The notes under the pieces: model-generated
Told to the model about the DNA's origin: nothing
Seen by the model: only the letters and a program-made list of their open reading frames with translations
Databases searched by the model: none
Source of the DNA: a virus
Reading direction: 5' to 3' (one strand)
Virus record (IMG/VR): IMGVR_UViG_3300020172_001949
Span: 1 to 29,294 of that record
DNA: 29,294 nucleotides
Part shown: in pieces, positions 1-18,195 of the stretch
Layout: each line of letters starts with the position of its first letter
How positions within the stretch are numbered: the stretch's first letter is position 1
Made by a program: the position numbers and the translations under genes

Positions 1-313
1 AAACTTCTATCGAAACATTAACTGCTGAAGATAATGTAATTAGCTATAACTTCACCTCCCGTGATGCAGTAGCATTGGCAGCCTAATCGGCCGCACATTC
101 AATATAATGATGTCTGATAATTATGTTGGGTGTAAAATATCAGGCTATATCAACAATTTGATTTGCATTGTTGATTGAGTATTTTGTAAATCTTTAGAAC
201 AATTAGTTTTGACATTTAATATAATTGTTCTTAACAACTAAAAATGTATACACACGTAGGCTGATTATGATAGTGTTTTAAAGACAAGGGTTCGACTCCC
301 TTTATGTCCACCA
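1..313 (+). ncRNA. ssrA: tmRNA (ssrA), 3' part; 5' end lies before the window
   Basis: Transfer-messenger RNA rescues stalled ribosomes by acting first as an alanyl-tRNA and then as a short mRNA that adds a degradation tag. The 3' end is tRNA-like: T stem 286-290/298-302 around the loop TTCGACT (291-297), acceptor strand TATGTCC (303-309), discriminator A310 and encoded CCA (311-313). No matching 5' acceptor strand (GGACATA or G-U variants) lies within tRNA distance, as expected if it sits several hundred bases upstream. A tag reading frame ending in ALAA plus UAA stops at 86. Between tag and T arm are helices typical of the pseudoknot domain: 114-119/138-143, 149-157/167-175 (9 bp, perfect) and 196-205/222-231 (10 bp). 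The stretch GTAGGCT (256-262) and the T arm resemble the 3' part of Bacillus tmRNA. The AT-rich composition matches the flanking phage genes. A host ssrA used as an attachment site is the alternative. Confidence 0.88.
24..86 (+). other. tmRNA tag-peptide reading frame
   Basis: From a GCT resume codon the frame reads AEDNVISYNF followed by TSRDAVALAA, then stop TAA at 84-86. The ALAA end is the classic ClpX-recognised terminus of ssrA tags (E. coli ends ALAA; the B. subtilis tag ends VALAA). The bases before the resume codon, TTAACT, resemble the ATAACT that precedes the B. subtilis resume codon. That is why I place the start here, although the frame is open to the window edge. At 20 residues it is longer than the 10-14 residues common in bacteria. 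The exact resume codon is inferred. Confidence 0.75.
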
Positions 314-338
314 ATTTAAACAAAGTAATAAATTAATT

Positions 339-509
339 ATGACAAAAATAGAAGCAGAAAAAAAGGTATATGAATTGACAGAGAAACTCTTATATGTAAA
401 AAGAGATTTCAAGGATGTTGCGGCGGGATATAAGGAAAAAATCAAAGAATTAGAAAATGAAATTAAAGCAGTAGTTGAAGAAGCAGAGTCATCTCCCAAA
501 GCACCATAA
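339..509 (+). CDS. Small charged helical protein, 56 aa, unknown function
   Basis: A short ORF from ATG 339 to TAA 507-509, beginning MTKIEAEKKVYELTEKLLYV and ending SSPKAP. It is almost entirely charged and helical with heptad-like spacing (KEKIKELENEIKAVVEEAE), so a single coiled coil is likely. No signal peptide or membrane segment is visible. It starts 25 bases after the tmRNA CCA end with no Shine-Dalgarno sequence, so it may be transcribed with the tmRNA. The even codon-like composition and a clean coiled-coil translation support it as real. I do not recognise the family; small coiled-coil proteins of this kind are common in large phages. Confidence 0.6.
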   Translation: MTKIEAEKKVYELTEKLLYVKRDFKDVAAGYKEKIKELENEIKAVVEEAESSPKAP

Positions 510-510
510 G

Positions 511-539
511 TTGACACTGTAGAGTGTATCAACTAGAAT
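511..539 (+). promoter_or_regulatory. Sigma70-like promoter for the 547 gene
   Basis: TTGACA (511-516), a 17-base spacer and TAGAAT (534-539) give a near-consensus sigma70 promoter. The expected start site, 6-7 bases after the -10 box, falls at about 546, directly on the ATG at 547, so the transcript may be leaderless. An imperfect dyad (GTTGA 510-514 with TCAAC 529-533, CAC 515-517 with GTG 524-526) spans the -35 box and spacer and could be an operator. Confidence 0.6.
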
Positions 540-546
540 AGTGTGT

Positions 547-948
547 ATGCCGAAAAAGTCTAAAGATGAATTTAAAAATTTAATAACTGAAAAGTTAGGA
601 AAATCTAAATCCAAACAAGTTGAAGAAATAAATGAATCTACTTATTCGGTATACACAAAAATATTTAATAATGAAAGCAGAGTTCAACATGAAGTGTTTT
701 CAAATGTTCCAGAAGATAAAAAGATAAGTGTATTAACAGAAAAAGGAACAAGAGTTGTAGTTGCAAAATATCCATCATTTTATAAAATTTATTTCATAGA
801 ATATATTGAATCAGGAGTGCCTTCATATCCAAGAGGCGGAATAAAAGTATACAATCAAACATTCGAACAAGTTCAATCATTTTATTATGAAAGTGTTGCA
901 ATTCATCCAACTAAAAAAGACAAATGTAAAATTTTTTCATACATGTAA
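547..948 (+). CDS. Hypothetical protein, 133 aa
   Basis: Begins MPKKSKDEFKNLITEKLGKS and ends CKIFSYM. The first ~45 residues are lysine-rich and probably helical; the rest (about residues 50-133) alternates hydrophobic and polar residues like a small beta-rich domain with many aromatics (YPSFYKIYFIEYIE). No membrane segment is seen. A GTG at 541 is in frame, but the ATG at 547 is preferred because the 511-539 promoter would start transcription there. There is no Shine-Dalgarno sequence. Another gene starting MPKK follows at 1596, but similarity does not extend beyond that. Function unknown; by position and promoter type it may be an early or middle gene. Confidence 0.72.
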   Translation: MPKKSKDEFKNLITEKLGKSKSKQVEEINESTYSVYTKIFNNESRVQHEVFSNVPEDKKISVLTEKGTRVVVAKYPSFYKIYFIEYIESGVPSYPRGGIKVYNQTFEQVQSFYYESVAIHPTKKDKCKIFSYM

Positions 949-952
949 TACA

Positions 953-981
953 TTGACAGTTGTATACAAGTATGATACTAT
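953..981 (+). promoter_or_regulatory. Sigma70-like promoter for the 1065-1520 pair
   Basis: TTGACA (953-958), a 17-base spacer and TACTAT (976-981; 4 of 6 match). The expected start near 988 leaves a leader of about 75 bases before ATG 1065, which contains a small hairpin (CAGT 987-990 with ACTG 996-999). It lies in the 116-base gap after the 547-948 gene and would drive the two small genes that end at the terminator at 1541. Confidence 0.55.
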
Positions 982-1064
982 GATTTCAGTTCGTGACTGG
1001 TTATCATGAATTGTCATATGTAATAAAACCAACAAGTAAAAATCAATAACATATAAAAACAAAT

Positions 1065-1286
1065 ATGTCTGATAAAAAAGTTAAGACTGGTAAAGTTGCC
1101 GAATCCGCCTCAGAAACAAAACGGTATGTTATCACACGAAGTGGATTGCGTGTGAGTGAGTTGGAGTATCAAACAAGAGAAGAAGCACAGGTTGAATATG
1201 ACCATTGGAAAGGAATTGTCACACGTTGGCCTGATGGAACAAAGATTGAGATTGTAGAATTCGATGATAAACGTCACAAGGTATAA
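1065..1286 (+). CDS. Small hypothetical protein, 73 aa
   Basis: Begins MSDKKVKTGKVAESASETKR. After a polar, probably disordered start (residues 1-18) there is a compact domain (about 19-73) with a beta-alpha-beta look: strand RYVITRSGLRVSE, a charged helix around TREEAQVEYDHWKGIVTRW, then strand TKIEIVEFD. Its base composition is visibly richer in G+C, and it uses more CGN arginine codons, than the AT-rich structural genes, so it may have a different origin or expression class. It is followed 3 bases later by the 1290 gene, forming a two-gene unit between a sigma70-like promoter and a strong terminator. Function unknown. Confidence 0.7.
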   Translation: MSDKKVKTGKVAESASETKRYVITRSGLRVSELEYQTREEAQVEYDHWKGIVTRWPDGTKIEIVEFDDKRHKV

Positions 1287-1289
1287 CAT

Positions 1290-1520
1290 ATGAACAAAGT
1301 ATACGGACTAAGAGAAAAGATTAAAAACGCGAACTCAAAGGAAGAAATTGATGAACTGTTGAAGACAGGAAAAAATTTCGAGTTTGCATCAGTTGAAACA
1401 AAACGTGCGTGGGTCTCGACTGCAAAGTTTAGAATTGCACAGTTGTCTAGTAATGATACTGTACAGACACCAGAAACACCTGTAAAGTCTGATAAGAATA
1501 AAACTTCTAAGAAAAAGTAA
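1290..1520 (+). CDS. Small hypothetical protein, 76 aa, lysine-rich tail
   Basis: Begins MNKVYGLREKIKNANSKEEI. The first ~50 residues look like a small helical bundle (helices around VYGLREKIKNA, KEEIDELLKTG and VETKRAWVSTAKFRIAQL); residues 55-76 are a polar tail rich in Thr, Pro and Lys ending in KKK. Only a weak AAGG lies before the start (1279-1282), inside the upstream gene. It is co-transcribed with the 1065 gene and followed at once by a rho-independent terminator. Small basic helical proteins can bind nucleic acid or RNA polymerase, but nothing specific supports that here. Function unknown. Confidence 0.68.
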   Translation: MNKVYGLREKIKNANSKEEIDELLKTGKNFEFASVETKRAWVSTAKFRIAQLSSNDTVQTPETPVKSDKNKTSKKK

Positions 1521-1540
1521 TTTTTTAATTTTACTTTTGG

Positions 1541-1576
1541 ATGCCGCCAAATAATTTTGGCGGCATTTTTGTTTTT
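1541..1576 (+). terminator. Rho-independent terminator
   Basis: Perfect 11-bp stem ATGCCGCCAAA (1541-1551) with TTTGGCGGCAT (1556-1566), loop TAAT, followed by a T-rich tract TTTTTGTTTTT to 1576. It ends the 1065-1520 unit and separates it from the phoH unit. Confidence 0.92.
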
Positions 1577-1582
1577 GTATGA

Positions 1583-1590
1583 TATTTATA
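1583..1590 (+). promoter_or_regulatory. Late-type promoter box TATTTATA
   Basis: TATTTATA, a variant of the T4 late consensus TATAAATA, lies between the upstream terminator and ATG 1596 with 5 bases to the start codon. The box centre is about 10 bases before the ATG, so transcription would begin at the start codon. Such a box can occur by chance in this AT-rich sequence; the support is its repetition before other first genes. Confidence 0.45.
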
Positions 1591-1595
1591 TCTGT

Positions 1596-1931
1596 ATGCC
1601 TAAAAAAGCATCGAAATATAAAATTTACGTGTTACCATCTAATTTTGATGAAATGGAGAGATTCATAGATTCACATAAAATTGAGATGACAGAACAAGTA
1701 GTTTCTTCAATAGAATACGCATTAAATAAAAAATTAAGTTTTGTTGAAGTTTTTTCATTTAAGAATTCTGACTTTGTAATAACTATTCCAATTGAAAGTT
1801 TTAGAGAAAACCTCAAAAACGTTTTTAATTATTACATTGATACTGAAAATTATGAGTTATGTGTTCGAATAAAATCGATAGAAACACTGTTGGAAAAAGC
1901 TCTCAAAAAAAATCTGCATGAAAAAAGATAA
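1596..1931 (+). CDS. Hypothetical protein, 111 aa
   Basis: Begins MPKKASKYKIYVLPSNFDEM and ends KKNLHEKR. It looks like a small alpha/beta protein: a strand (KYKIYVLP), a helix (DEMERFIDSHK), a longer amphipathic region (EQVVSSIEYALNKKLSFVEVFSFK), a strand (FVITI) and C-terminal helices (ENLKNVFNYYID, SIETLLEKALKKN). The frame is open further upstream, but earlier starts would overlap the terminator at 1541-1576, so the ATG at 1596 is used. Its last 14 bases overlap the start of phoH, which suggests translational coupling. No family is recognised; small uncharacterised proteins often sit next to phage phoH. Confidence 0.7.
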   Translation: MPKKASKYKIYVLPSNFDEMERFIDSHKIEMTEQVVSSIEYALNKKLSFVEVFSFKNSDFVITIPIESFRENLKNVFNYYIDTENYELCVRIKSIETLLEKALKKNLHEKR

Positions 1932-2670
1932 AAAACCAAAAACGGAAAATCAAACAACACATGATACCAACATTGACACAAGTCCAAAAATACCGCAACG
2001 ATCAAAATTAAAACACGAATTAAATATTATTGAAAGAGAGTTAACAGAAAAACAAAAAGAATTTATAAATATAGCGTTAGATAAAAATACAAAGATGATA
2101 TTTGTTAGCGGACCGGCAGGAACAAGTAAAACTTATATATCAATATACTCGGCATTAAAATTAATGAACCTTAAAAAGGTTAGTGATTTGTTATATTTAA
2201 GAAGCGCAGTTGAAAGTTCGGAAAATAAAATTGGATTTTTACCTGGAGAAGCACATGAAAAAATGTCTCCTTATATTCAACCACTTTTGGAAAAATTAAC
2301 TGAATTATTGCCTAAGAACAATATAGATTTGTTGGAGAAAGAAGAACGTATCGATAGTATTCCGATTGGATTTTTACGTGGATTAAATTGGAATGCCAAA
2401 GTCATAGTGGCAGATGAGTCTCAAAATATGACTCAAAAGGAATTAATTACATTGATTACTAGAATAGGCGAATTTAGCCGAGTGTTTATTTTGGGAGATC
2501 CTGATCAAAGTGATATCAACGGTAAAAGCGGATTCGTAAAAGTAATGAATCTATTTGATGATCAAGAAAGCAAAGATAATGGCATTCATATATTTAAATT
2601 TACTGAAGAAGACGTAGTAAGAAGTGGATTAGTAGCTTACATTATTAAAAAAATAAAAAAGTTGACATAA
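1918..2670 (+). CDS. phoH: PhoH-like P-loop ATPase
   Basis: PhoH-family proteins are cytoplasmic P-loop ATPases related to the N-terminal half of superfamily 1 helicases; a role in RNA metabolism is proposed and the function in phages is unsettled. The Walker A motif GPAGTSKT is at residues about 65-72, a Walker B-like VIVADESQN at about 162-170, and ILGDPDQSD (about 190-198) follows, all in the order expected for PhoH. The 250-residue length fits phage PhoH proteins. A lysine-rich tail of about 35 residues precedes the domain. The gene overlaps the 1596 gene by 14 bases and precedes the late tail-fibre block. phoH is widespread in T4-like marine phages, so its presence next to baseplate and fibre genes is not unusual. 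Confidence 0.93.
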   Translation: MKKDKKPKTENQTTHDTNIDTSPKIPQRSKLKHELNIIERELTEKQKEFINIALDKNTKMIFVSGPAGTSKTYISIYSALKLMNLKKVSDLLYLRSAVESSENKIGFLPGEAHEKMSPYIQPLLEKLTELLPKNNIDLLEKEERIDSIPIGFLRGLNWNAKVIVADESQNMTQKELITLITRIGEFSRVFILGDPDQSDINGKSGFVKVMNLFDDQESKDNGIHIFKFTEEDVVRSGLVAYIIKKIKKLT

Positions 2671-2690
2671 TGTATATTTATAAATATACA
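2662..2690 (+). promoter_or_regulatory. Promoter before the tail-fibre operon; exact late box TATAAATA
   Basis: TATAAATA (2679-2686) matches the T4 late promoter consensus exactly, with 8 bases to ATG 2695. The same stretch also offers TTGACA (2662-2667), 17 bases and TATACA (2685-2690), a sigma70-like layout whose start would fall inside the ATG. The TTGACA overlaps the last codons of phoH, so the late box is the simpler reading. The gap has no Shine-Dalgarno sequence. Confidence 0.6.
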
Positions 2691-2694
2691 TTTT

Positions 2695-5421
2695 ATGGGT
2701 CAAAAGTCAATCTCAGATTTAAATCAATTATCGAAAGCAAATCTTTCGAATAATGATTTATTGCTTATCACGGATTTAAGTGCCAAAGAAACTAAAAACA
2801 TTGAAGTTTCGGAATTTCAAGATTATACTGTTTCTAAATTAGATTATTTAACCACGGGATCTTTTTCAGGAAGTTTTCGTGGTAAATTGTATGGATCAAC
2901 TCTTACATCTTCATTTTCAAATTTATCCGATTTATCAATAAGTTCAAGTTTTCTATTATTTAATGGAAATGTTAATGGCACATCATCATATTCAATAAGT
3001 TCAAGCGTATCAACGTTTTCAATTTCATCTTCACAATCAAATACCGCGTCATATGCATTCAGTTCATCATATTCAAATGTAACGTTGTATGCAATTAAAA
3101 GTTCTTCTATACAATCTTTAAATTCTTCGTTGTCTATATATTCAGAAAGTTCTTTATTTTCAAATACATCATCTTTTTTAAATTATTACGGTCAAAATAA
3201 TGGAACTGCACATTCATCCAGTTTTTCTGAAATATGTAATTTATCCTCAGTTGCCGATAATATAACGGATAAAGCAAGCAGTATTGTAAGATATGCATCA
3301 AAAGCAAATGAAAGTAATTTTTCAAAATTTTCTAATTATGCGATCACATCATCAACATCTGAAAATTCAAAAACCGCTGATTCCGCATTGAATAGATTAT
3401 TTTCAAGTTTAGAGTTTAGAATAAGCACGGATGTTACTAATAAGAAAATAAATATTACTCCAATATCATGGAAAAATATAAGAAATATAGCGGCAGGCAC
3501 AGTTGGAAATTTATATACCGATTTCTATGTAACATTTAAAAATAAACCACCTTTTCCAATTGAACGACAAGCTGAAGCATCGAATTTAGCTACAGTTACG
3601 GTTGGATCTTTTCAATTAGGTGCCGATAATTTAATACGAAATATTCAACCTAATACAAAAAGTCCAGTTCCAATTTTTACTTCATATTTATTTCCCTGCG
3701 GTGTAGATGGATATGTAATTAGATTTGTAAATTGCACTTTATACGGAGAACAAAGACGAGGAACCGGCGGATTTTTCGGAGCTATTTTTAGTGGACTTCA
3801 AAGTTTTTTTGGAGGTGGAAGTAATGTAACTAGAAGATCAACTTCGGTATCTAATGATAAAGGAGCAGTATATTGGGATAAACAATTGAATGGTGTAGTG
3901 GTATCCTCGCAAACTTTCTGTAATACAGTTGATTTTCTTGATATGGGCCCACCAAATACATTAAGTCAATATCAAACGTTTTTGGCATCTAGATTTGGCA
4001 GTAAAACTTTGGTAAAATCCAATCAATTTGTAGGTTTTCCACAAGAATCAAATATATTATACGATTTATTTAAGTGGTATCCTCAACCAACGATTGAACA
4101 ACAAAATACAATTCCAAAAGATGTTCCTTTTAATGTTGTAAAATCTATAGCATATGCAAGTGGAAGTAATTATAATTTGTTATTATTAGAAAATGATACA
4201 TATTATCCAACCTTTTTAGGTAGACAAATTGCATTAGTAGAAGGAAAAACTTTTTATCAAAATAGTTTGCATTATCCAAAAACTGGATCGACGGTATCTG
4301 CATCAGTAAGTAATTGTAATTATTTGTATTATAATACTAGTTCAAATCAATATATTTGTGTTGATGATACAAAGGTATTGTATATTAATTCTAGTTCAAT
4401 CCATAATTATACAGGATCTTCAATTTATGGAAACAACCTTTATCTTAATGAATTACAATCAAAATTGCCAATTTGGAATGAATATAAAACCAATTTGACT
4501 AATTGTTCTAAAATATCTCATATAAGTAATAATAGATACATACTGATAAATGACGTAAATTATAATTTAAAAAATATAGGAGAAGCATCAAGTGGAATGC
4601 CTATTTATATAATTCCTGATATTACTTTGCAGTCAACTCCAATAATTCAATCAAATGATGTCTTAAATCTAATGTTAAAAAATGAAAATTTAATATTAGG
4701 ATATGATGGATCTACATCTGGAATTCCTAAAATTGAATTGACCCCCGATAATTATGTTGGCAATTACAGAAAAGTTACTATTAATAAAACCGTATTTAAG
4801 ACTATAAAAGTTTTAGATACAAAGAGAGCAATTATAGCAGGAGAAAATGGTATTATTGTTTATAGTAATAATATTAATACATCAAACCCAACATGGATAA
4901 GAGTTGATCCATTATCGCCTGGTCAGTTAAATACATCTATATATTTAAGATCTTCTACCGAATATTTGGTTGAAATCAATGACATGTATACAATTTATCC
5001 AAGTTCAATAGAATATGTAATTGTGTGCGGCCAAGATAATTCCGGTAGAGCATCAATGATAACTTGTAAAGTGCCAGTATCCGATGATCTTATAATTGCA
5101 AATTGGTCATGGCAGGGAATTCAAGGATTATTTTATCAAGATACATTAGATGTAGATAGTAACGGTAATTTATTACCTACTCAAATTGGTTCATCGTCAT
5201 TTAAATCCGTTTTTAAAGATACTAATAATGTTATAGCAGCTGGATATTCTACATTTCTAACTTCTTCTTATTATAGATACGCAACTGATAGAGAGGTTTA
5301 TCCTTATCAAATGGGTTCTTATGATACTTCTTCCATCATAAACGCAATCGGAAGAATCGAAAATGAAATGTATATATTTGGTGGAAAGAATACACTAGAT
5401 TTATATAAAATTGAAATATGA
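2695..5421 (+). CDS. Tail fibre-like protein 1, 908 aa, propeller-like C-terminal half
   Basis: First of four tandem fibre paralogues. Residues 1-50 form the shared head module (ISDLNQLSKANLSNNDLLLI), probably the virion attachment end. Then come GSFSGSFRG (about 57-65) and a Ser/Tyr/Asn-rich stalk to about residue 240, made of repeats such as SSYSISSS with an interspersed (N/Q)NGT element. A short module FRI...ISWKNI (about 240-265) is shared with the next two proteins. The rest is unique: a Gly/Phe-rich stretch (GGFFGAIFSGLQSFFGGG) and, in the last ~350 residues, repeats such as RAIIAGENGIIVYS and EYVIVCGQDNSG that resemble YCF48/BNR-like beta-propeller blades. The role is inferred as a host-recognition fibre. 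It ends in an ATGA overlap with the next gene. It is translated without a Shine-Dalgarno sequence. Confidence 0.75.
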   Translation: MGQKSISDLNQLSKANLSNNDLLLITDLSAKETKNIEVSEFQDYTVSKLDYLTTGSFSGSFRGKLYGSTLTSSFSNLSDLSISSSFLLFNGNVNGTSSYSISSSVSTFSISSSQSNTASYAFSSSYSNVTLYAIKSSSIQSLNSSLSIYSESSLFSNTSSFLNYYGQNNGTAHSSSFSEICNLSSVADNITDKASSIVRYASKANESNFSKFSNYAITSSTSENSKTADSALNRLFSSLEFRISTDVTNKKINITPISWKNIRNIAAGTVGNLYTDFYVTFKNKPPFPIERQAEASNLATVTVGSFQLGADNLIRNIQPNTKSPVPIFTSYLFPCGVDGYVIRFVNCTLYGEQRRGTGGFFGAIFSGLQSFFGGGSNVTRRSTSVSNDKGAVYWDKQLNGVVVSSQTFCNTVDFLDMGPPNTLSQYQTFLASRFGSKTLVKSNQFVGFPQESNILYDLFKWYPQPTIEQQNTIPKDVPFNVVKSIAYASGSNYNLLLLENDTYYPTFLGRQIALVEGKTFYQNSLHYPKTGSTVSASVSNCNYLYYNTSSNQYICVDDTKVLYINSSSIHNYTGSSIYGNNLYLNELQSKLPIWNEYKTNLTNCSKISHISNNRYILINDVNYNLKNIGEASSGMPIYIIPDITLQSTPIIQSNDVLNLMLKNENLILGYDGSTSGIPKIELTPDNYVGNYRKVTINKTVFKTIKVLDTKRAIIAGENGIIVYSNNINTSNPTWIRVDPLSPGQLNTSIYLRSSTEYLVEINDMYTIYPSSIEYVIVCGQDNSGRASMITCKVPVSDDLIIANWSWQGIQGLFYQDTLDVDSNGNLLPTQIGSSSFKSVFKDTNNVIAAGYSTFLTSSYYRYATDREVYPYQMGSYDTSSIINAIGRIENEMYIFGGKNTLDLYKIEI

Positions 5422-9633: not shown

Positions 9634-10116
9634 ATGATAGTAGTAAAACATCAAAATAATCCGTTATCCCGTGCAATTCATCGTGACGAGTTTTTACAAC
9701 CGTTCGACCAACTATTCGATGAATTTTTTAAAGCAAACGTTCCTTCATTTACTCAAGAATTTGGAGTAGACTTTTTTGAAAAAGGGTCTTATCCGAGAGT
9801 TGATGTTATTGACTTCAATGATAAAGTGGTAATAGAAGCCGAAGTTCCAGGTTTAACAAAAGGCGATGTAAATGTTGAAGTTCAACAAAATGTATTAACC
9901 GTAAGTGGAGGAAAGAGTAAAAACGTTACTGATACAGAAGGTGGGAAGTATATTAAGCGAGAATTAAAACGATCAAATTTCCGCAGATCATTTACTTTGG
10001 GTGAGAATATTGAAAAAGATACCGTTTCAGCAACATTTGAGAACGGAATTCTTCAAATAACTCTCAATAAAGTAAAACCTGTGGTTCCTGAGGTAAGAAA
10101 AGTTACAATTAAGTAA
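9634..10116 (+). CDS. hsp20: Small heat-shock protein, Hsp20/alpha-crystallin family
   Basis: An ATP-independent chaperone that binds unfolding proteins in the cytoplasm. The N-terminal arm (about 1-50) contains a Phe-rich segment (FDQLFDEFFKANVPSF); the alpha-crystallin domain runs from about 52 (YPRVDVIDFNDKVVIEAEVP) to about 148 and includes the family's ENGILQITL (G-x-L) motif; the tail ends VRKVTIK, a V-x-I form of the C-terminal I-x-I anchor. The 160-residue length is normal. Hsp20 genes are known in T4-like cyanophages, near virion genes. It forms a single-gene unit with its own promoter, structured leader and strong terminator. It is probably involved in virion protein folding or assembly. 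Confidence 0.95.
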   Translation: MIVVKHQNNPLSRAIHRDEFLQPFDQLFDEFFKANVPSFTQEFGVDFFEKGSYPRVDVIDFNDKVVIEAEVPGLTKGDVNVEVQQNVLTVSGGKSKNVTDTEGGKYIKRELKRSNFRRSFTLGENIEKDTVSATFENGILQITLNKVKPVVPEVRKVTIK

Positions 10117-15817: not shown

Positions 15818-16210
15818 ATGACTACTATAGGATTAACTTTACCGATACAAAAGGGTAATAGTGGATATTTTCAACAATCATATGATTCGTTGACTCAAAT
15901 CCGTTCAAATTTATTGAATTTTTTCAATACCAGACCCAACGAACGTAGATTTAATCCTCAATTTGGCACTAGACTCTATAATTTTTTATTTGAGCAAAGA
16001 ACAGAAGATTTTGAGGAAATACTAAAAAACATTATAATAGAAGATATTAACACTTGGTTTCCAAATGTTTTTGTAAATCAAGTGTTTTTAGATATTTCTT
16101 CTGCTGAAAAAAACAGTGACATTAATAATTATATAATAAGAGTGAACGTTCAATTTACATATAACAAACAAACTAGTAGTTTTTCATTTGTAACTACCAA
16201 TAATATATAA
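15818..16210 (+). CDS. gp25: Baseplate wedge protein gp25-like
   Basis: gp25 joins the first sheath ring to the baseplate and helps trigger sheath assembly and contraction. The 130-residue length matches T4 gp25 (132). The N-terminal part reads GLTLPIQKGNSGYF then SLTQIRSNLLNFFNTRPNER, and RFNPQFGTRLYNFLFEQ follows, the conserved core of the gp25/W family with a PxFGT motif. NTRPNERRFNPQFG occupies the place of the family's E-P-R motif region. The C-terminal half (WFPNVFVNQVFLDIS, INNYIIRVNVQFTYN) is the usual beta-strand part. It sits directly before gp6, as in T4 and P2-like clusters. It starts 2 bases after the preceding gene with no Shine-Dalgarno sequence. Confidence 0.92.
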   Translation: MTTIGLTLPIQKGNSGYFQQSYDSLTQIRSNLLNFFNTRPNERRFNPQFGTRLYNFLFEQRTEDFEEILKNIIIEDINTWFPNVFVNQVFLDISSAEKNSDINNYIIRVNVQFTYNKQTSSFSFVTTNNI

Positions 16211-16215
16211 TTAAT

Positions 16216-18195
16216 ATGCCTGATATTATACAAAAATCATTCCAACCTCTGAATAAAGATGTTAAATATCTTAATAGAGATTTTAACTCTTTTAAACAGG
16301 GATTAATTGATTTTGCGAAAAACTATTATCCAAGAAGTTATCAAGATTTTAGTGATGCATCACCTGGCACAATGTTTATCGAACAGGCATCATATGTCGG
16401 AGATGTTTTATCTTATTATATTGATTATCAATTTAAAGAAAGTTTGATGCCATATGCAGAAGAACGAAAGAATGTTTTGACATTGGCAAAATATCTTGGG
16501 TATCGTCCTTCGGCTACAAAATCGGCAATTACTCAATTAGAACTTTTTCAATTAGTTCCATCAAAAATAGACAATGATGGAAATTATATACCTGATGATA
16601 AATATGCGTTATCATTGAGACAATATGCTCAATTCGAAAATACATCTGGCCAAAAATTTTTAACAAACGAACCGATTGATTTTTCGGTTGACACAAAGTT
16701 TTCACCAAGAGAAGTAACTATATATTCCAGAGATTCATTAGGAGTTCCGCAATTCTTTTTATTAAGAAAAGCAGTAAATGCCTTTGCGGGTGAATTAATT
16801 GTAAAAACAGTATCAGTTGGAAACTCCACTCCTTTTTATAAAGTGGAATTTGATGAAACAAATGTTTTAGAAATTGTAGAAATAAAAGATAGTAACAATA
16901 ACAAATGGTATGAGGTAGATTATTTAGCACAAGATGTAATATTTACAGATATCGATAATATTGAGACTAATGATGGTAGTTTTTATATTTATAAAACAGA
17001 AGTTCCTAAAATAATGAAGTCATTGAAGACTTCACGAAAATTTACAAGAAATATAACTGCAAATAATACAACATATTTGGAGTTTGGCGCAAATTTAGAC
17101 AATTCTGCGGACGAAATTATTTACCCAAATTCTGATATAATTGGTATCGGATTAGCTAATATATCAAATATTGACATTTCGTTAGATAGCAGCAATTTTT
17201 TGAAAACAAATACCTACGGCATATCTCCATCAAATACTACTTTGACTATAACTTATATAGTAGGAGGCGGATTATTATCTAATTGTAATGTAAATGAAAT
17301 TATAAGAATAAATTCTTATGAATTATTAAATGATGCATCATCGTTTAATCCAATTGAACAAAATTTATTTAATACAATGGTTCAATCTCTGAGAGTTAAT
17401 AATTTCATATCCGCAACAGGTGGAAAAGACGAAGAAAGCGTTGAGGAAATTAGACAAAATGCAATATCATTATTTGTTTCTCAAAACAGAGCAGTTACCA
17501 AAGATGACTATGTAGTTAGATCATTATCAATGCCTTCTAGATTCGGAAGCGTATCAAAGGCATATGTAAAATCAGACGTAGATTTGAATTTTAATTTACA
17601 AAAAAACGTTAGTGGATTTGTAGACAATAATAATAATGCCACCGCAACAACTGATGCGGTCGAGAATTATTTTAGAAAAATTAATTATGACATCAGCAAT
17701 CCATTTTCTATAAATTTATATGTGTTATCATATGATTCACAGAAACATTTGACTCAAATAAATGAGGCATTGACATATAATTTAAAACAATATTTATCAA
17801 AATATAGACTTTTGACAGATGGAATAAATATTATAGATGGATACATCATAAACATAGGTGTGAATTATAAAATTGTAATTTATAACAATTATAATAAAAG
17901 AGACGTATTAAATAATTGCAATCAAAAAGTTAAAGAATTTTTTGATATTGAAAAATGGGGATTTTCGCAACCGATAAATTTAAGTCAACTTGAATTAGAA
18001 ATTGCAAGAGTAGACGGAGTGCAATCTGTAGCAGAATTAGTCATACGTAATCTGAATATAAATGATGGAAATTATTCTCCACATCAATATGATATTGCCG
18101 CAGCAACCAAAAACAAAATAATATATCCATCGTTAGATCCGTGTGTGTTTGAAGTAAAATACCCAGAAACCGATATTGTAGGAGATGTAAATTAA
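16216..18195 (+). CDS. gp6: Baseplate wedge protein gp6 / gpJ-like
   Basis: gp6 (J family) dimers form the inner ring linking baseplate wedges around the hub. The length of 659 residues is close to T4 gp6 (660). The N-terminal signature is strong: LNRDFNSFKQGLIDFAKNYY (about 19-38), then FIEQASYVGDVLSYYIDYQF (about 54-73), ERKNVLTLAKYLGYRPSATK, the region most conserved across the J family. The C-terminal third carries GGKDEESVEEIRQNAISLFV and NRAVTKDDYVVRSLSMP (about 407-440), also typical of J proteins (xGKDxExxxExRxxA). It follows gp25 in the canonical order by 5 bases and is followed by the DNRLRE-like protein after 1 base. Confidence 0.93.
   Translation: MPDIIQKSFQPLNKDVKYLNRDFNSFKQGLIDFAKNYYPRSYQDFSDASPGTMFIEQASYVGDVLSYYIDYQFKESLMPYAEERKNVLTLAKYLGYRPSATKSAITQLELFQLVPSKIDNDGNYIPDDKYALSLRQYAQFENTSGQKFLTNEPIDFSVDTKFSPREVTIYSRDSLGVPQFFLLRKAVNAFAGELIVKTVSVGNSTPFYKVEFDETNVLEIVEIKDSNNNKWYEVDYLAQDVIFTDIDNIETNDGSFYIYKTEVPKIMKSLKTSRKFTRNITANNTTYLEFGANLDNSADEIIYPNSDIIGIGLANISNIDISLDSSNFLKTNTYGISPSNTTLTITYIVGGGLLSNCNVNEIIRINSYELLNDASSFNPIEQNLFNTMVQSLRVNNFISATGGKDEESVEEIRQNAISLFVSQNRAVTKDDYVVRSLSMPSRFGSVSKAYVKSDVDLNFNLQKNVSGFVDNNNNATATTDAVENYFRKINYDISNPFSINLYVLSYDSQKHLTQINEALTYNLKQYLSKYRLLTDGINIIDGYIINIGVNYKIVIYNNYNKRDVLNNCNQKVKEFFDIEKWGFSQPINLSQLELEIARVDGVQSVAELVIRNLNINDGNYSPHQYDIAAATKNKIIYPSLDPCVFEVKYPETDIVGDVN

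Follow-up and report, generated by a model that had tools for sequence, protein, structure and literature searches.

The first 313 nucleotides of the stretch analysed here (the window: IMG/VR virus record IMGVR_UViG_3300020172_001949, 29,294 bases, classed linear) are very probably part of a functional phage-encoded tmRNA, from a large tailed phage whose lineage, judged from its sequences, has its own unusually long and well-conserved tag, a new tag family. The window is a fragment that begins inside the tmRNA gene (ssrA) and holds its 3' 313 nt (1–313), which lie on the plus strand, as do all the elements of the RNA described below. The first-pass annotation had read a tmRNA here, and the tmRNA covariance search agreed: cmscan matched RF00023 at 1–313 with 58.5 bits (cut-off 47; E 1.2e-20) over model positions 70–374, truncated on the 5' side by the contig end, and relatives matched the complete model. 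ARAGORN, which needs both ends, made no call on the window because the 5' half of the tmRNA is missing from the contig. The nearest complete relative, L050, whose tmRNA has the 5' end GGGCATATACTGGTCTCGATTT, is 99.7% identical over the full length of the window's part, and alignment to it places exactly the first 70 nt of the tmRNA beyond the contig end. The tmRNA itself is mostly ordinary, being of the standard one-piece form.

Using the window's PhoH (1918–2670) as a query, we fetched 36 related viral loci, and a degenerate tag pattern, A-[ED]-D-N-V-I-x-Y-x-F, yielded 38 viral stretches. Among the fetched loci, ARAGORN called 45 complete tmRNAs, their tags being of the same type; with whole-contig searches included, at least 27 distinct complete sequences of 382–388 nt were found in IMG/VR contigs, and the complete relatives examined scored 110–131 bits against RF00023. 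These relatives supply the missing 70 nt, including the 5' acceptor half that pairs with 303–309 and carries G3.U70. The 5' strand anticipated by the first-pass annotation is thus present, but its guessed sequence, GGACATA, did not hold: the closest relatives have GGGCATA, and G3.U70 is a wobble pair in every one of the 27 complete relatives. Several PhoH relatives had no tmRNA on their contigs, and many of these contigs were short or ended near the tRNA array. Searches with blastn found no match for window positions 1–2700 among phages, or for positions 1–330 among plasmids.

The 3' tRNA-like end, the ALAA tag and the 9- and 10-bp helices, read directly in the sequence, all lie where they had been placed at first reading. 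The tRNA-like domain consists of a 7-bp acceptor with G3.U70, a T-arm and a 3' CCA and lacks an anticodon arm; its 3' half lies in the window and its 5' half in the 27 relatives. G3.U70 is the alanine identity pair in tRNA biology. In the window, the T-arm (286–302; compensatory changes in four of five pairs) is followed by the 3' acceptor strand (303–309), including U70, and an encoded ACCA (310–313), all assigned from the Rfam match and, for the acceptor strand, the alignment. The 3' strands of H2, which join the mRNA-like and tRNA-like parts, occupy 252–282 (252–257, 261–267 and 275–282) and are 98–100% paired. Upstream of the tag, both PK1 helices are 100% paired in the alignment, with compensatory changes; the window holds a 3' strand only, that of the second helix (7–11; alignment columns 78–82 with 55–59, two pairs changed on both sides), its partner lying in the missing 5' part. 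An H5-like stem (78–94; 78–83 with 89–94; helix 7 of the alignment) carries the stop codon in its loop. Further downstream are a 9-bp helix, ATCAACAAT/ATTGTTGAT (149–175; 149–157 with 167–175), assigned from the sequence and the Rfam alignment to part of a downstream pseudoknot, and, in the last pseudoknot region, a 10-bp helix, AGAACAATTA/TAATTGTTCT (196–231; 196–205 with 222–231), in which six of the nine tested pairs changed on both sides.

Covariation was evaluated on an alignment of 28 sequences with a model comprising the acceptor, H2, both PK1 helices, the stop-codon stem, the last long helix and the T-arm. Changes on both sides were found in 26 of 58 pairs, compared with a shuffle mean of 12.3, and none of 500 shuffles reached 26. 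Paired cells amounted to 98.3%, versus 37–51% when partners were slid, a control that favours the model since the structure derives in part from RNAalifold run on these aligned sequences; we therefore regard the compensatory changes as the stronger evidence.

The tag frame (24–86) was identified by translation, by the ARAGORN tag calls in relatives and by third-position bias. It opens with the resume codon GCT (24–26), encodes the 20-aa tag AEDNVISYNFTSRDAVALAA and closes with GCA TTG GCA GCC TAA (72–86), that is, ALAA followed by the stop codon TAA at 84–86. The lineage has 12 distinct tags of 19–21 aa, in which the first ten and the last five residues are strongly conserved, the first half following A[ED][DE]NVI[SA]Y[DN]F. 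Codon differences within the tag number 370 at the third position versus 136 at positions 1 and 2, and most are synonymous (289 versus 118). Because the differences are mostly third-position and synonymous, the tag peptide itself is selected and, given that the structure also covaries, both the RNA and the tag are maintained. The tag motif had no match in 84,980 prokaryotic species genomes, using a strict pattern that would miss a differently formed host tag, and tblastn of the tag against phages gave no match.

Such conservation bears on whether the gene might be a decaying, functionless copy captured from a host. Relics of ssrA captured in prophages have been discussed (PMC9004378), and the H5-like stem of the window contains an A80.C92 mismatch where most relatives have A-U, U-A or G-U. 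However, the 27 distinct complete copies, although they diverge to about 73% identity, retain their length and fold, the G3.U70 pair and a tag frame with its stop, and we consider decay highly improbable.

The genomic setting also points to a phage gene. Nearly all loci share a conserved order of tRNA array, tmRNA, 56-aa open reading frame (ORF), small ORFs, phoH and structural genes, the fuller arrays upstream of the tmRNA reading Val-Pro-Leu-Ser-Gly-Gln-Ala-Gly. In the window, the 56-aa ORF (339–509, plus strand) starts 26 nt downstream of the tmRNA, is probably on the same transcript, and is conserved throughout the lineage, at 73–95% identity to 14 relatives, with weak PHROG matches. Its product is charged and probably coiled-coil, with 23 invariant columns in 15 sequences and no clear known family. 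The PhoH-like ATPase (1918–2670, plus strand; PF02562, 3e-49; phrog_170) served as a synteny marker, and baseplate wedge genes, gp25-like and gp6-like (15818–18195, plus strand), mark a contractile-tailed phage. Between tail genes, the window also encodes an Hsp20 small heat-shock protein (9634–10116), which is conserved in many relatives.

Being cut at the gene, the window would by itself also fit a host ssrA, or the 3' end of one, lying at the edge of a prophage. Integration at ssrA is common (PMC11915505), and many islands use this site. Among the relatives, however, the full gene is found deep within viral contigs, 22–28 kb into contigs of 105 kb and 71 kb into one of 89 kb, between the phage tRNA array and phoH and the structural genes, which supports the proposal of the first-pass annotation that the phage carries its own tmRNA. 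Nor did either observation that would point to a host gene appear: the 5' acceptor half is present in the relatives, and no bacterial chromosomal genes lie alongside. The tag motif is likewise absent from the prokaryotic genomes scanned, and no bacterial relative of the window's PhoH was found in prokaryotic genome contigs. Because the gene is so deeply embedded in viral contigs, the longest of them 105 kb, the prophage-edge explanation is largely refuted, and we assign it a minimal probability.

In Microcystis phage Mel-JY01, Flavobacterium phage immuto and a 484-kb uncultured phage (LR756508), related baseplate genes stand in the same order as in the window, the gp6-like protein being 38–41% identical. 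Only LR756508 among these has a tmRNA, very different from that of the window, and none was found in immuto or Mel-JY01, so not every member of the wider group has the trait. Immuto and Mel-JY01 share the baseplate block at this identity, but we rejected them as pointers to the host, as they show no tmRNA.

The case for a working phage tmRNA is built on features read from the sequence: a conserved fold, an apparently chargeable end (G3.U70 and CCA), a maintained tag frame with its stop codon in a stem loop, and a fixed place in the phage tRNA array. Following established trans-translation biology, the host alanyl-tRNA synthetase would charge the phage tmRNA in the infected cell, and host SmpB and EF-Tu would deliver it to ribosomes that had come to a halt on broken mRNAs. 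The growing chain would then gain an alanine and the phage tag ending in ALAA, ClpXP-type proteases of the host would degrade the tagged product, and the ribosome would be released. SmpB (PF01668) had no match in the contigs of 15 relatives, all of them fragments, so the host's alanyl-tRNA synthetase, SmpB and protease are probably used. The phage may gain a supply of rescue RNA, to go with its own tRNAs, at times when many ribosomes stall because of mRNA decay or nuclease-based defence. Of the roles suggested in the first-pass annotation, rescue on leaderless mRNAs found no support, and a tag tuned to the phage would be compatible with a tag that is conserved and specific to the lineage.

The tag raises the question of whether rescue is the main role. 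Its lineage-specific sequence, its length of 19–21 aa and a conserved first half in addition to the degron end would suit redirection, in which the phage tag, unlike host tags, would steer stalled proteins, chiefly those of the host, towards one specific protease, or the phage RNA would vie with host tmRNA for SmpB. The authors of the Melnitz study have suggested that host proteins are tagged so that their amino acids can be recycled (PMC9004378), and a phage tmRNA with only a tRNA-like domain inhibits host tmRNA (PMC4131195, PMC11915505). However, the ALAA/AVAA ending is an ordinary degron type and the presence of a complete mRNA-like domain speaks against a role as competitor alone, and redirection as the main role seems unlikely to us. 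In a further, speculative reading, which we also hold to be improbable, the phage tmRNA would be more than a copy of host ssrA: a specialised version with a long tag private to the phage, which would send stalled chains along another path than the host tag does, to another protease or adaptor or to a slower fate, and would so form the phage's own ribosome-rescue channel. With this lineage, one can ask whether phages alter the tag and not just the supply of rescue RNA.

Phage tmRNAs as such are already known; they occur in 402 of 18,146 phage genomes (PMC9004378) and contribute 79 of the 97,179 sequences in a 2025 tmRNA database (PMC11915505), and the first-pass annotation fairly called them uncommon. 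What is new, relative to that small set of 79, is a well-supported lineage represented by 27 distinct complete sequences, whose tag is conserved as a peptide but resembles nothing that was matched in bacterial genomes. With the bacterial one-piece tmRNA (RF00023), the window RNA shares the tRNA-like domain with G3.U70 and CCA, H2, PK1, a tag ORF with its stop in a stem loop, downstream pseudoknots and a length of about 385 nt; it differs in being phage-borne, in its tag of 19–21 aa, whereas the commonest tag length is 10 aa (PMC11915505), and in a motif for which the scan of prokaryotic genomes gave no match. Complete tmRNAs are likewise present in large Mycobacterium (Bxz1-like) and Streptomyces phages, with annotated tags such as ATDTDATVTDAEIEAFFAEEAAALV and ANSNFALAA, and the 25-aa tag annotated in mycobacteriophages is a precedent for long phage tags; these phages belong to another lineage, and their tmRNAs have no detectable sequence or tag similarity to that of the window. 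Methylophage Melnitz and the pelagimyophages (PMC9004378) are also T4-like myophages whose own tmRNA precedes a small phage gene, but their tmRNA is a permuted two-piece form with a glutamine riboswitch, unlike the one-piece tmRNA of the window, where the Rfam cmscan found no match to riboswitch families. The small gene downstream of the Melnitz tmRNA, a transcription coactivator, offers a possible parallel to the 56-aa ORF. Some huge phages encode a tmRNA together with SmpB (PMC7162821). Mycobacteriophage DS6A carries a phage-borne tmRNA relative that has a tRNA-like domain only and no tag, in contrast to the tagged RNA of the window (PMC4131195, PMC11915505).

A strict pattern scan combined with an acceptor and T-stem filter detected about 30 distinct tag-less RNAs of this kind in viral contigs; a looser first scan was dropped because it mostly caught the T-arms of neighbouring tRNAs. 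Twenty-eight are 79–88 nt long and two, in L082 and L202, are 112 nt; the sites are L095, L109 and L132–L177 (viral contigs), L082:1501–1612 (LR756508) and L202:889–1000. Each consists of a tRNA-like domain with G3.U70, a tmRNA-type D-loop, H2 and a T-arm, without an mRNA-like domain, and H2 is closed by a small loop, often AAAGCC...GG. H2 and the T-arm covary strongly in an alignment of 28. The L095 RNA had no RF00023 or RF00005 match at the curated cut-offs in cmscan and no ARAGORN call. A similar tag-less RNA lies within the tRNA array of Streptomyces phage Shaeky, in a gap that carries no annotation (L221:2992–3082). DS6A was the only phage precedent that we found for a tag-less tmRNA, and molecules such as its RNA inhibit host tmRNA (PMC4131195, PMC11915505); the tmRNA database lists nine 'standard, no CDS' forms (PMC11915505). 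The tag-less class thus seems much commoner in phages than recorded, and its abundance in phage contigs is relevant to the inhibition of host ribosome rescue by phages.

Other RNAs were met in passing. In LR756508, the 112-nt RNA, a tRNA-like domain with H2 and no tag domain (58.2 bits), occurs in addition to a full tmRNA in the same genome (L080:1501–1947; LR756508.1 92434–92880). The latter has an apparent tag frame of about 36 codons, GVNNADYESAGFTAEDFAQMDGESLYHGSERKPAAV, ending in KPAAV and not in the usual LAA; the ARAGORN tag call GRRKPLSW was judged from the sequence to be a miscall. In Maribacter phage Panino, the annotated tmRNA (L222:2936–3268) coincides in part with tRNA-Asp and tRNA-Thr and appears to have been called in error from two tRNA genes. 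Finally, crAss-like phage cr56_1 contains, just upstream of a large ORF, a 46-bp segment with 88% identity to the tmRNA PK1 region (L076:3001–3046; NC_055890.1 10077–10122). Both PK1 helices look possible there, with no surrounding tmRNA, and the match could be due to chance or to a pseudoknot reused in a leader.
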